Positions 42,490 to 47,253 of a stretch of DNA of 58,655 nt are shown here, one piece after another. The DNA lies in NCBI GenBank assembly GCA_017615595.1, contig JAFZZT010000026.1, positions 1-58,655 of the forward strand, read 5' to 3'. Position 1 is the first letter of the stretch. Each line of letters starts with the position of its first letter. Source of the DNA: Bacteroidales bacterium (lineage in GTDB: Bacteria; Bacteroidota; Bacteroidia; Bacteroidales; WCHB1-69). The translations under genes were made by a program, and so were the position numbers. The notes beneath the pieces were generated by a model. It did no database searches. It was not told the origin of the DNA and saw nothing but the letters and a program-made list of their open reading frames with translations.

Positions 42490-42498
42490 TATCTTTGC
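42490..42498 (+). promoter_or_regulatory. Bacteroidota -7 box, gatE promoter
   Basis: TATCTTTGC, giving a leader of about 120 nt before the gatE ATG. The leader contains GAACAGCCCT-type sequence shared with 36469-36503 and ends in GTAAACAGTAAACT-type heptamer repeat (42598-42624). Confidence 0.65.
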
Positions 42499-42624: not shown

Positions 42625-44574
42625 ATGCAAACCATCAATCCCCAAGAAAATTACGAGGCCAGCAGAAAAGCCGTCGGCTATGTTGACCGCAAGCAGGCCA
42701 CCCAGGCCGACTACGACCGCATCGGGTTCATGTCGGGACTGGAGGTCCACCAGCAGTTGGCGACCAAGGAGAAGCTCTTCTGCCGCTGCCCTGCCGGCAT
42801 CTTCCAGAAGCCGGACCAGTTTGACGCCGAGCTGTTGCGCCACATGCGTCCCACCCTCTCCGAGATGGGCGAGTATGACGGCACAGCCCTTATGGAGTTC
42901 AAGACCCGCAAAAACATTGTCTATCGCATCGCGCATCGCACCGCCTGTACCTACGAGGTGGACGATACCCCGCCGTTCCCCATCAACCCCGAGGCGCTGC
43001 AGTATGCCCTCGAAATAGCCCTCGCCTCCAAACTCAAGATCGTGGGCGAGGTTCACATCACCCGTAAACAGTATCTGGACGGCTCCATCCCGACAGGATT
43101 CCAACGTACCGCCATCCTCGGTATCGATGGCGAGATCCAGCTGCGCAACAAAAAGGTGCGCCTCATCCAGCTCAGCGTGGAGGAGGATGCCTGCCGCGAG
43201 GTCTCCGATATCGGACACACCCGCGTCTATCGCACCGACCGTCTGGGGATGCCGCTCATCGAGACCGTGACCTATCCCGACATGGTGAACCCGGACGAAG
43301 TGGAAGAGGCTTGTAACTACATCCGCTTCCTGAACCGCAGCACGGGCCGCGTGCGCACGGGCATCGGTGCAGGTCGTGAGGATGTCAACGTGAGCTGCAA
43401 GGGCGGCACCCGTATCGAGGTGAAGGGCGTGGCCCACACCAAATGGATCCCGGAAGTGACCCATGTGGAGTGCTTCCGTCAGTGGGCGCTGCTCGCCATC
43501 CGCGAACAACTCAAGGCCCGCATCCGGAAAGAGGACTGGAAGATGAACTTCATAGAGCTCAATCCCAAAGATTTCCATTTCTATTTCGATCCCATTACGG
43601 ATGCTATCAAGGGTGGGGCAAAGGTCTATGCCGTCAACCTGCCGCAATTCGCAGGTCTGCTCTCTCATTTCACCCAGCCCGGTCATCCGTTCTACTGCGA
43701 GTTTGCCGACAGACTGAAAGTCATCGCCTGCCTCGAACGTCCCAACATGGCCACCAGCGAAGACCTGGAGGACGTGGTGAGCCGCAGCGTCTTCGAGAAG
43801 GCCGCCAAAGCGTTGAACGCCGGCGACAACGATGCGCAGATCATCTTCTGGGCTCCTGAGGAAGACGTGAAGACCGCCCTCGAAACCATTGAGGAGCGTG
43901 CGCTGATGACCTTCGACGGCATCCCGCACGAGACCCGCAAGGCCCTGCCAGACGGCACCACCATCTTCGAGCGTGTGCTGCCCGGCGCTGACCGTATGTA
44001 TCCCGACACCGACTCCGCGCCTATCCCGTTGACCAACGACTATATCGAGGAACTGCGCAAGAACATTCCCGACTCCGTGGCCGACCGCTACGCGCAGATG
44101 GTGGAGTGGGGCGTGCCGCAAGACTGCTTCAAATATATCTTCACGCACAACTTCTTCCCGCTCATCAAGAAGATTGCCACCGAGCTGGACTATTGTCCCA
44201 AGTATCTCGGCACCTTCTTCGGCCAACGACTCAAACACTGGCACGGTCAATACGGTACTATCCCGTTCTGCACCTGCAAGATCTTTGATCTTTTTGCTTT
44301 CTTGAAACAAGAAGGTCTGGATAAAGCCATCGCCCCTGACCTGCTCAAGCTGATGTTCGAGCACCCGAAGGCTGACTTCGCCGAACTGCTGGCTCTCACT
44401 GGCTACAGGAAGATGACCAAGGCGGAAATCGAAGAAGGTATGGGCATTATGGCTGAAGTCTTCCAGCCGCGTCGCAAACGCACCACCGACGAGGACAAAC
44501 GTAACTACCTCCTCGGCTGCGCTCGCCAACATGCCGCTGGCAATGCCGCATTCACCGAAATAGCAACCAAGTAA
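42625..44574 (+). CDS. gatE: Archaeal-type glutamyl-tRNA(Gln) amidotransferase subunit E
   Basis: A 649-residue homologue of archaeal GatE, the kinase/transamidase that activates Glu on tRNA(Gln) and adds ammonia. The cradle domain has GLEVHQQLATKEKLFCRCP, DDTPPFPINPEALQYALEIA, GSIPTGFQRTAILGIDGEI and the GatE-specific STGRVRTGIGAGREDVNVS; GatB differs here. An inserted GAD (AspRS-like) domain at about 295-405, found in GatE but not GatB, is visible, followed by LPGADRMYPDTDSAPIP and the helical domain. The last roughly 80 residues do not show the usual YqeY-like closing motif. gatD follows 40 bp downstream. The gene has its own promoter. The codon usage looks like the neighbours, so any transfer is old. 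Confidence 0.92.
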   Translation: MQTINPQENYEASRKAVGYVDRKQATQADYDRIGFMSGLEVHQQLATKEKLFCRCPAGIFQKPDQFDAELLRHMRPTLSEMGEYDGTALMEFKTRKNIVYRIAHRTACTYEVDDTPPFPINPEALQYALEIALASKLKIVGEVHITRKQYLDGSIPTGFQRTAILGIDGEIQLRNKKVRLIQLSVEEDACREVSDIGHTRVYRTDRLGMPLIETVTYPDMVNPDEVEEACNYIRFLNRSTGRVRTGIGAGREDVNVSCKGGTRIEVKGVAHTKWIPEVTHVECFRQWALLAIREQLKARIRKEDWKMNFIELNPKDFHFYFDPITDAIKGGAKVYAVNLPQFAGLLSHFTQPGHPFYCEFADRLKVIACLERPNMATSEDLEDVVSRSVFEKAAKALNAGDNDAQIIFWAPEEDVKTALETIEERALMTFDGIPHETRKALPDGTTIFERVLPGADRMYPDTDSAPIPLTNDYIEELRKNIPDSVADRYAQMVEWGVPQDCFKYIFTHNFFPLIKKIATELDYCPKYLGTFFGQRLKHWHGQYGTIPFCTCKIFDLFAFLKQEGLDKAIAPDLLKLMFEHPKADFAELLALTGYRKMTKAEIEEGMGIMAEVFQPRRKRTTDEDKRNYLLGCARQHAAGNAAFTEIATK

Positions 44575-44611
44575 TTTACTGATCACTGTTCACTGATCAC
44601 TAATCACTAAA
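44575..44611 (+). repeat. Heptamer repeat between gatE and gatD
   Basis: Directly after the gatE stop, TCACTGT, TCACTGA, TCACTAA, TCACTAA units repeat every 7 bp up to the gatD leader. Confidence 0.7.
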
Positions 44612-44614
44612 ATT

Positions 44615-46096
44615 ATGGAAAACAACGACAAAGTAACATTCCAAGGATATAAAGGACGGGCATTGGAGATGCTCAAAAAATATGATGTCCACGTTTGGGA
44701 CAAGGCCGAGGTCGAGACCACCCGCGGTCACTTCTCGGGCAAGATCCTGCCCCGTGCCGAGAACACCGACGATATCCACATCGTGATGAAGGTGGCCACT
44801 GGCTATAACATCGGTATCGACATCGAGACCATCACTGACATGAAGGGCGAGCGCGACCCGCAGCCCGTGTTCAAGATTCCGGAGAAGGAGTTCCCCTACA
44901 CCCCGGGCTTGCCGCACGTCAAATTGTTGGGCACTGGCGGCACCATCGCCTCCCGCCTCGACTACCGTACCGGCGCGGTGATCCCCGCCTTCTCGCCTGG
45001 CGAGTTGTACGGCGCCGTGCCCGAGTTGGCCGACATCTGCAACTTGGAGACCGAGAAGGTCTTCGCCGTCTTCTCCGAGAACATGTCTCCGGTAGAGTAC
45101 AAAGCGCTGGCCAACAAGATTGGCGATGAGATAAAGAAAGGTATTGAGGGTATTGTGATTGGTCATGGTACGGACACGCTGGCGCACACCGCCACTGCGT
45201 TGACCTATATGTGCCAGAACCTGCCGATGCCCGTGGTGCTGGTCGGCTCTCAGCGAAGCTCTGACCGTCCGAGCTCTGATGCGGCCCTGAACCTGATGCA
45301 CGCCATGACCGCTGCCGGTCACGGTGACATCGCCGAGGTGATGGTTTGTATGTTCGGACCCACCAGCGATGACTACGGCTTCCTGCACCGCGGCACGCGC
45401 GTGCGCAAGATGCACAGCTCCTACCGTTCCACCTTCCGCACCATCGGCGACACGCCGCTGGCCACGGTGAACCGCAGAGACGGCGTGCAGCCTATCAAGG
45501 AGGTCTATAACCATCGCAGAAGAGGCGAACAGCACCGCCAAGTGGAGGTCATCACCAACTATGAGGACTACAAGCGCAGCATCGCCAAGAACGATCCGGA
45601 TGTCACCCGCATCGTGCCTACTTTTGACGACCGCGTGGCCATCCTATACTACTACCCGGGCATGAAACCGGACGTGTTGGACGCCCTGATCGACAACGGA
45701 TACAAGGGCATCGTATGGGACGGCACTGGCTTGGGCCACGTCAACAAGCACATGTTCGACGCCATCCAAAGAGCCACGGACGCGGGCGTACATCAGTACA
45801 TGAGCGTGCAGACCATCTGGGGCTATACCCACATGTTCGTCTATGACACCGGCCGCGACATGATGGCCCGAGGTATCATCCCTGCCGACAACATGCTGGC
45901 GGAGAGTTCCTATATCAAGCTCGGCTGGGCGTTGGGCCTCACGAAGGACAGCGGTCAAAAGCGCGAGGACGTGAAGAAGCTGATGCTCACCCCTATCAAC
46001 GACGAAATCACCCCGCGCGAACCCTACGACGGCTACCTCGTCTATCAAGGCGGCGTGCCGGAAGTGGAGGAGTTCGTGAAGAAAGTGAGAAAGTAG
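44615..46096 (+). CDS. gatD: Archaeal-type glutamyl-tRNA(Gln) amidotransferase subunit D
   Basis: A 493-residue asparaginase-like subunit that releases ammonia from glutamine for GatE. An N-terminal small beta domain (YKGRALEMLKKYDVHVWDKA, GHFSGKILPRAENTDDIHIVMK) of the GatD type precedes the amidohydrolase domain. That domain has the nucleophile region LLGTGGTIASRLDY (about residue 107), the second active-site pair in IGHGTDTLAHTA (about 186), GSQRSSDRPSSDAALNL and the catalytic lysine in TRVRKMHSSYRSTFR (about 266). These match archaeal GatD rather than free L-asparaginases, which lack the N-terminal domain. It is longer than the roughly 435 residues usual in Archaea, the excess being mainly in the C-terminal half. 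It lies 40 bp after gatE in what should be one message. Confidence 0.92.
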   Translation: MENNDKVTFQGYKGRALEMLKKYDVHVWDKAEVETTRGHFSGKILPRAENTDDIHIVMKVATGYNIGIDIETITDMKGERDPQPVFKIPEKEFPYTPGLPHVKLLGTGGTIASRLDYRTGAVIPAFSPGELYGAVPELADICNLETEKVFAVFSENMSPVEYKALANKIGDEIKKGIEGIVIGHGTDTLAHTATALTYMCQNLPMPVVLVGSQRSSDRPSSDAALNLMHAMTAAGHGDIAEVMVCMFGPTSDDYGFLHRGTRVRKMHSSYRSTFRTIGDTPLATVNRRDGVQPIKEVYNHRRRGEQHRQVEVITNYEDYKRSIAKNDPDVTRIVPTFDDRVAILYYYPGMKPDVLDALIDNGYKGIVWDGTGLGHVNKHMFDAIQRATDAGVHQYMSVQTIWGYTHMFVYDTGRDMMARGIIPADNMLAESSYIKLGWALGLTKDSGQKREDVKKLMLTPINDEITPREPYDGYLVYQGGVPEVEEFVKKVRK

Positions 46097-46180: not shown

Positions 46181-47056
46181 ATGAGCAAAATATCCATCAG
46201 ATTCTACAACGATCACGAGGTGCGTGCCATTTGGGACGAAGAACTGTCCAAGTGGTGGTTTTCCGTAGTAGATATTGTCGGGGCCATTAACAATGAAGCT
46301 GATTACCAGAAGAACCGCAACTATTGGAAGTACCTCAAGACAAAGCTGAAGCGTGATGGAAATGAAGTGGTTAGTACCACTAACCAGTTGAAAATGACAG
46401 CTCCTGACGGCAAGAAACATCCTTCGGATGTGCTTGACCAGAAAGGGGTTGAGTTATTGGGCAAACATTTCCCCAATACCAAGGCGACTGATTTTCTGGA
46501 CTGGTTTACCTATAGCGACAACACGATTGACGGGCGGAGCCGCAAGAAGGCCTACACGTTCATCGAAAGCAACTTGGTGGCGGACAAGGATGTGGGCACG
46601 GTGAAAGCCCTGCAGCAGATTCACGCCTACATTTTCGGCGGGCTTTACGATTTTGCCGGGAAGATACGCACCAAGACCATCTCCAAAGGCGACACACTGT
46701 TCTGCCTTGCGCAGTATTTGCCCGACTACCTGAAGACAGTTGAGAAGATGCCGGAAACGACATTCGAAGAGATTGTGGATAAATATGTGGAGATGAACGC
46801 CGCTCATCCTTTCATGGAAGGCAACGGTCGCAGCACCCGCATCTGGTTGGACTTGATTCTCAAGAAGCGGTTAGGGCTGTGCATCGACTGGAGCAAAATC
46901 GGGAAATCAGACTATTTAGACGCGATGGTAGCGAGTGCCGTCAGCAGCGACAAAATCCGCGCCCTGCTCCAACAGGCCCTGACAGACAAAATCGACGACC
47001 GTGAGATATTTATGAAGGGAATCGACTACTCGTATTATTACGAGCAGGAAGGGTGA
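46181..47056 (+). CDS. Fic domain protein with N-terminal Bro-N-like domain
   Basis: A 291-residue protein. Residues about 5-105 resemble a Bro-N/P22-Ant type DNA-binding domain (IRFYNDHEVRAIW, WWFSVVDIVGAI, WKYLKTKL, VLDQKGVELL). Residues about 125-270 form a Fic domain with IHAYIFGGLYDFAGKIRT and the active-site HPFMEGNGRSTR (His209 to Arg220), complete for AMP transfer. Fic enzymes usually modify a hydroxyl side chain of a target with AMP. I see no clear class II inhibitory helix and no adjacent small antitoxin gene, so control may come from the N-terminal domain. The target is unknown. It lies 84 bp after gatD; co-transcription depends on whether the 46121 hairpin terminates. Confidence 0.85.
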   Translation: MSKISIRFYNDHEVRAIWDEELSKWWFSVVDIVGAINNEADYQKNRNYWKYLKTKLKRDGNEVVSTTNQLKMTAPDGKKHPSDVLDQKGVELLGKHFPNTKATDFLDWFTYSDNTIDGRSRKKAYTFIESNLVADKDVGTVKALQQIHAYIFGGLYDFAGKIRTKTISKGDTLFCLAQYLPDYLKTVEKMPETTFEEIVDKYVEMNAAHPFMEGNGRSTRIWLDLILKKRLGLCIDWSKIGKSDYLDAMVASAVSSDKIRALLQQALTDKIDDREIFMKGIDYSYYYEQEG

Positions 47057-47175: not shown

Positions 47176-47179
47176 GAGT

Positions 47180-47253
47180 AGCGAGTAGGAGATTCGAACT
47201 CCTGATCTTCAGGATGAAAACCTGACGTCCTAGGCCGACTAGACGAACTCGCC
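47180..47253 (-). tRNA. tRNA-Glu (anticodon UUC)
   Basis: The minus-strand sequence folds as a cloverleaf. The acceptor is GGCGAGT with ACTCGCT (first pair G-T), the D arm contains GTCTAGTCGGCCTAGGAC, and the anticodon stem TCAGG/CCTGA encloses loop TTTTCAT with anticodon TTC. The T arm is AGGAG-TTCGAAT-CTCCT. CCA is not encoded. It has its own promoter (47276-47284) and terminator. Glu-tRNA is made from this gene's product; the tRNA(Gln) that GatDE would act on is not in the window. Confidence 0.95.

Follow-up and report, generated by a model that had tools for sequence, protein, structure and literature searches.

GatDE, an amidotransferase of two subunits, has so far been treated as an archaeal enzyme. 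According to the accessible portion of one review, it is nowadays confined to archaea, and this is tied to an origin in the last universal common ancestor (LUCA), to co-evolution with the archaeal tRNA-Gln, and to the lack of an archaeal glutaminyl-tRNA synthetase, GlnRS (PMC9499178), while the available text of another paper limits GatDE to archaea without the asparaginyl enzyme, AsnRS (PMC8007984). For bacteria, the portion available of a 2014 survey of Gln-tRNA routes reads the absence of gatCAB, in Bacteroidetes as elsewhere, as a sign that the indirect pathway is defunct; the genes cited in its methods are gatA, gatB, and gatC, and “GatE” occurs 0 times in its main text (PMC3927822). In Deinococcus, Thermus, and Bdellovibrio, an amidotransferase is known to occur beside GlnRS (PMC4206432, accessible portion). 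In the titles and abstract openings of the open-access literature we found no description of GatDE in bacteria, and automatic annotation may already be naming such bacterial genes. Here, we describe adjacent gatE and gatD genes in a stretch of 58,655 nucleotides from a Bacteroidales bacterium (contig JAFZZT010000026.1 of assembly GCA_017615595.1; the whole stretch is called the window below). What is new, judging from sequence comparisons, is a GatDE that is truly bacterial, widespread, and present beside GlnRS, against the archaea-only description. The presence of both in cultured bacteria makes the archaea-only and the defunct-indirect-pathway views testable, and bacterial GatDE may serve the accuracy of translation.

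Archaeal GatDE (P. abyssi, 1zq1; M. thermautotrophicus, 2d6f) resembles the window pair in having both subunits, the conserved columns, and the GatD_N plus asparaginase-like domains, but the bacterial GatE proteins are 36–39% identical to it, carry an additional N-terminal segment, and match the GAD domain and the tail weakly; furthermore, the bacterial host has GlnRS, and its tRNA-Gln has U1-A72 instead of the A1-U72 given for archaea in the accessible part of the review (PMC9499178). Bacterial GatCAB shares with GatDE the GatB_N catalytic domain, common to GatB and GatE, whereas the ammonia subunit of GatDE is asparaginase-like and not an amidase; GatA passes the cut-off in 1/30 relatives of our host and has no match in the host genome itself, which is among them. 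Type I asparaginase, finally, has the catalytic domain of GatD, but GatD additionally has GatD_N, scores higher on GatD models, and is encoded 3′ of gatE in most loci.

A bacterial GatDE clade

The preliminary description of this DNA had read the pair as GatDE of the archaeal type encoded by a bacterial chromosome, distinct from GatB and from free asparaginases, and both family models and solved chains agree with it; the GatE and GatD motifs that it quoted and the adjacency of the two plus-strand open reading frames (ORFs) were found as described. Window GatE reaches 397.6 bits on TIGR00134 (cut-off 319.55) and 455.7 bits on NF003107, 0.3 short of the cut-off of 456, while the best GatB model gives 122.6 bits (cut-off 338); the GatB/GatE catalytic domain occupies residues 37–475. 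Window GatD reaches 459 bits on TIGR02153 (cut-off 324) and 458.4 bits on NF003217 (cut-off 310), and the type I asparaginase model TIGR00519 stays below these GatD models with 338.6 bits (cut-off 260.5). The GatD_N domain (PF18195) lies at residues 27–73 (40.2 bits, cut-off 25.7), and the solved chains closest in sequence to both proteins are those of 1zq1 and 2d6f. Many columns are invariant in the alignments of 35 GatE and 29 GatD sequences, and invariant columns are also common to window GatE, seven bacterial relatives, and two partial archaeal sequences, an alignment of 10 in which the N-terminal segment of the bacterial proteins measures about 28 residues. T110, T186, D187, and K265 of GatD, which we take to be the catalytic Thr/Thr/Asp/Lys of the asparaginase type, are unchanged across the 29 sequences. 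In the genus of the window, GatD is about 30 residues longer than most aligned relatives, and with respect to the archaeal chains window GatD has an additional stretch past residue ~305.

The preliminary description had placed GatDE in a Bacteroidales chromosome, which is correct but understated. Of 199 genomes sampled from the order, each at least 95% complete except the own one, 83 have GatE above cut-off, the own genome among them. GatE also passes in 18 of 30 relatives (own genome counted; among them 14 of 18 in its genus) and in 22 of 296 genomes sampled across the phylum, namely, the own genome and 21 labelled as another class of the same phylum, with none of the same-class genomes outside the order in that sample reaching the cut-off. 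A scan of named genomes gave at least 572 confirmed loci, and in the 80 best of them, which were analysed, gatE occurs in the named isolates Marinifilum flexuosum DSM 21950, Labilibaculum euxinus A4, Labilibaculum sp. K2S, and Perlabentimonas gracilis, and in metagenome-assembled genomes (MAGs) of Cloacimonadota, Zixibacteria, Aminicenantes, WOR-3, Acidobacteriota, and Calditrichota. Among the matches listed, a MAG from goat reticulum, with 91% identity, and RUG312, with 89%, are the named records closest to window GatE, and the 13 pattern matches in viral contigs included zero confirmed GatE relatives. Altogether, 141 gatE loci were compared (139, the window, and L201, a repeat of L081; 136 distinct GatE cores): a gatD ORF starts no more than 600 bases 3′ of gatE, in the same direction, in 124 of them and lies farther away in 5, and the flank is too short in 6.

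Trees of GatE with archaeal and bacterial homologues, as the preliminary description had proposed, were built quickly with support from the Shimodaira–Hasegawa-like approximate likelihood-ratio test (SH-aLRT): one of 58 rows, for which one in three of the anonymous Bacteroidales rows was taken, and another of 64 rows, with one in five of them and 20 of the 21 other-class genomes, a Natrinema piece being excluded. In both, a long branch parts bacterial from archaeal GatE, the latter represented by two or three sequences, too few for judging nesting or the direction or date of transfer. The 64-row tree contains two supported bacterial groups, one made up of the other-class rows (98) and one that joins Bacteroidales with other phyla (95), and the Cloacimonadota, Zixibacteria, Aminicenantes, WOR-3, Acidobacteriota, and Calditrichota rows cluster with support of 99 in the 58-row and 82 in the 64-row tree. 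Rows named Planctomycetota, Archangium, and Chlorobiota sit within Bacteroidales and may be mis-binned. Taken at the level of sequence, the window pair is thus best described as true GatDE belonging to a bacterial clade that spans Bacteroidales and several other phyla. For the second bacterial GatE group (L236–L255, other classes of the phylum), the archaeal model gives higher scores (426–497 bits); some of its genomes also have GatB-like matches, and one member, G263, has GlnRS. Separately, a 987 kb Natrinema plasmid (CP031304.1, L167) carries a haloarchaeal gatE that is unannotated in the PLSDB table and split over two reading frames.

An archaeal contaminant or chimera, which the preliminary description had named among the outcomes that would undo its claim, is a hardly credible source of this locus, and so is a decaying remnant. 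In favour of such a source, the guanine-plus-cytosine (GC) content of gatE and gatD is raised (0.58 vs. 0.525 in the window), and their third-position GC somewhat so (0.76 and 0.80 vs. 0.72 and 0.74 in two other window genes), but copies 84–92% identical stand at 9 genus-mate loci of the 30-relative sample and at 1 or fewer of the 199-genome sample, and the occurrence of GatDE in named isolates contradicts contamination. The ratio of nonsynonymous to synonymous substitution rates (dN/dS) is also far below 1, both for gatE (0.06–0.12 against six genus mates) and for gatD (0.03–0.05 against five), and the bacterial GatDE clade is under purifying selection.

GatDE beside GlnRS

The window is one contig (G000:C2) of a genome whose 53 contigs add up to 2.11 Mb at 92% completeness, where the preliminary description had expected GatDE to work in place of GlnRS or GatCAB, or on another substrate. 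The genome search for glnS, gatCAB, and gltX that it proposed did find glnS, a single GluRS above cut-off, and no match to GatA in a profile search, and, together with the AsnRS also present, this leaves the replacement of GlnRS or GatCAB unsupported. The GlnRS of G000 is split over two contig ends, with profile positions 18–521 on C13 and 1–17 on C33; the end of C33 runs up to the HIGH motif, and C13 resumes at AKSIC and contains MSKRK. Across the order, GlnRS passes the cut-off in 190 of 199 genomes, that is, in 81 of the 83 GatE-positive and 109 of the 116 other genomes (rows compared by hand), the latter including G129, without GlnRS above cut-off and with a partial GatE below it, which was scored as GatE-negative. 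The two GatE-positive genomes without GlnRS above cut-off are G050 and G083, the latter likely because of missing assembly, given that G160 and G217 of the same genus hold both genes. Among 30 carriers from several phyla, hand-picked from the 80 named loci, 29 have GlnRS above cut-off, the miss being a genome of 1.4 Mb, and 5 have GatA. Since nearly all carriers examined encode GlnRS, the own genome included, GatDE as a stand-in for GlnRS was rejected; dependence of the host on GatDE for Gln-tRNA, with GlnRS lacking, is a trait of archaeal hosts and does not define the protein family. A role as the maker of Asn-tRNA is also unlikely, since 53 of 54 genomes, with or without GatDE, have AsnRS above cut-off and the single miss shows a fragment at a contig end.

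Because the carriers have GlnRS, bacterial GatDE is probably a second or corrective route that would amidate Glu-tRNA(Gln), a prediction to which we give somewhat better than even standing. GatD would release ammonia from Gln or Asn, GatE would activate the γ-carboxylate of the Glu carried by tRNA(Gln), and Gln-tRNA(Gln) would be the product; most likely, the enzyme would repair tRNA(Gln) misloaded with Glu by GluRS, or sustain Gln-tRNA when GlnRS is limiting. For the clade as a whole, present beside GlnRS in many phyla, we lean slightly towards its serving either the repair of mis-glutamylated tRNA(Gln), that is, proofreading by repair, or a new amidation substrate.

The position of glnS favours tRNA-Gln as the target of GatDE, given that a search of the 141 gatE loci for GlnRS and GluRS found glnS adjoining gatDE in three distant lineages and in three orientations. 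In L198 (G054, same order), glnS, gatE, and gatD lie in line, the first two being separated by about 100 bases; in L161 (an unclassified bacterium), glnS and gatE are divergent; and in L255 (G263, from a different class of the phylum), glnS and gatD are convergent. A GluRS gene stands beside gatDE in none of the 141 loci, two weak GluRS matches being GlnRS proteins. L198 was picked because its glnS and gatE coordinates already showed closeness, and G054 is alone among the 83 GatE-positive genomes in having the two genes listed within 10 kb of each other (six of them have no glnS or none with a listed position). If some 55 more genomes compared in this way are allowed for, 0.33 such loci are expected (P 0.005), and otherwise 0.18 (P 0.0008), values that are rough and after the fact, assuming random gene order and a genome of 3.5 Mb, with 2.5 Mb giving P 0.002–0.003.

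The main rival is a changed substrate, in which the GatDE chemistry of carboxylate activation and ammonia channelling is kept while the target has become something else, for instance a different aminoacyl-tRNA, a peptide, or some small molecule. We regard it as rather unlikely, although it would explain why the enzyme persists in carriers whose GlnRS should make it needless for Gln-tRNA, and the long stem that sets the bacterial clade apart from archaeal GatE would fit it, as would the weak matches at the GAD insert (16 bits at residues 324–418 of window GatE, below the Pfam cut-off of 23.4) and in the YqeY-like, tRNA-elbow-reading tail (GatB_Yqey), for which the domain scan lists no match in window GatE, Marinifilum GatE giving 23.7 bits against a cut-off of 27. 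Both proteins, nonetheless, match the GatE and GatD equivalog models over their whole length, glnS adjoins the pair in those three lineages, and the stem length says little because just two or three archaeal sequences are in the trees.

Several observations weigh against the amidation of Glu-tRNA(Gln). The GatE tail is diverged in the genus of the window, where the own profile match stops at 569 of 622. No GatD ORF follows gatE in 6 of the 141 loci (L062, L066, L089, L097, L103, and L148) despite 700–4,000 bases examined, with the rest of those genomes not searched; in L089 and L103, about 4 kb of downstream sequence is without one. There is no conserved operon partner, the largest neighbour family, beyond gatE, gatD, and presumed out-of-frame shadows, being shared by 9 of 81 loci. 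Three near-complete genus mates are without GatDE (G004 and G002 in the 30-relative sample, G030 in the order sample), and since these are close and highly complete relatives, GatDE is dispensable in at least some lineages. Lastly, neither tRNA-Gln nor the GluRS marker residue changes with GatDE, a lack of covariation that also favours a changed substrate.

The tRNA identity elements and the distinction between discriminating and non-discriminating GluRS had both been put forward in the preliminary description, and neither set carriers apart from non-carriers. The genome has 36 tRNA genes (RF00005), among them tRNA-Gln TTG and CTG and tRNA-Glu TTC and CTC; its tRNA-Gln has A73, U1-A72, and a short D-loop, and its tRNA-Glu a G1-U72 pair and longer D-loops. 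GatDE is reported, in the source text available, to read D-loop size among other features, which speaks for tRNA-Gln as the target, and the archaeal enzyme to read A1-U72 of tRNA-Gln (PMC9499178, accessible part), a pair that the own tRNA-Gln does not have, which speaks against it. A73 looked archaeal but is equally present without GatDE, so that a tRNA-Gln identity adapted to GatDE was rejected: A73 occurs in the tRNA-Gln(TTG) of 18/18 GatDE-positive and 11/12 GatDE-negative genomes (G079 has G73), A72 occurs in all, and the tRNA is the same within the same-genus sets G173/G101 and G012, G013/G030. This absence of any difference rests on 30 loci (L206–L235) with labels assigned by hand, the pattern having matched 32 of 80 genomes. 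The A73 seen in 29 of these 30 tRNAs of the order differs from the G73 given for bacteria in the accessible part of the review (PMC9499178).

The GluRS proteins, likewise, all have Arg at the position of T. thermophilus Arg358 (28/28, 17 from GatDE-positive and 11 from GatDE-negative genomes), with no difference between carriers and non-carriers at this one imperfect marker, and this suggests that GluRS mischarges tRNA-Gln little. It also speaks against GatDE and a non-discriminating GluRS forming the main Gln-tRNA route with GlnRS as an auxiliary, which we judge improbable: in the order, GlnRS is above cut-off in 190 of the 199 genomes and GatE in just 83, and the nine genomes without GlnRS above cut-off include two with GatE above it, no enrichment. 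In favour of such a main route, the solved GluRS 4gri also aligns an Arg there, and, if 4gri is, as we presume, from Borrelia, an organism without GlnRS, the marker is indecisive.

Layout of the locus

The features of the locus are collected below.

Features of the gatE–gatD locus in the window
Feature	Positions	Strand	Length	Basis or remark
gatE, amidotransferase/kinase subunit	42625..44574	+	649 aa	family models and closest solved chains
gatE–gatD gap with short TGATCACT-like repeats inside	44575..44614	+	40 bases	
gatD, asparaginase-like, ammonia-supplying subunit	44615..46096	+	493 aa	family models and closest solved chains
candidate promoter, Bacteroidota-type −7 element TAnnTTTG	42490..42497	+		consensus only; 135 bases 5′ of gatE

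The two genes are probably co-transcribed. TAnnTTTG, which we take to be the −7 motif of Bacteroidota, occurs 29 times in the window on both strands, and because its copy before gatE is the single plus-strand one in 268 bases, it is plausible that both genes stand under this one candidate promoter. A tRNA-Glu(TTC) gene lies at 47178–47253 on the minus strand, 1.1 kb from gatD; a meaningful link was considered and rejected, the proximity being probably due to chance because no other of the 81 loci has a tRNA for Glu or Gln within the range covered (the window was covered whole, the 80 other loci over 3–10 kb each). Around the gatE loci, glutamine synthetase domains were found in 2 of 75 co-directional neighbour ORFs scanned (L123 and L157), a finding in favour of the Glu-tRNA(Gln) reading. 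Directly 3′ of gatD, a plus-strand ORF at 46181–47056 has an HPFxxGNGR motif, from which we take it to be Fic-like.

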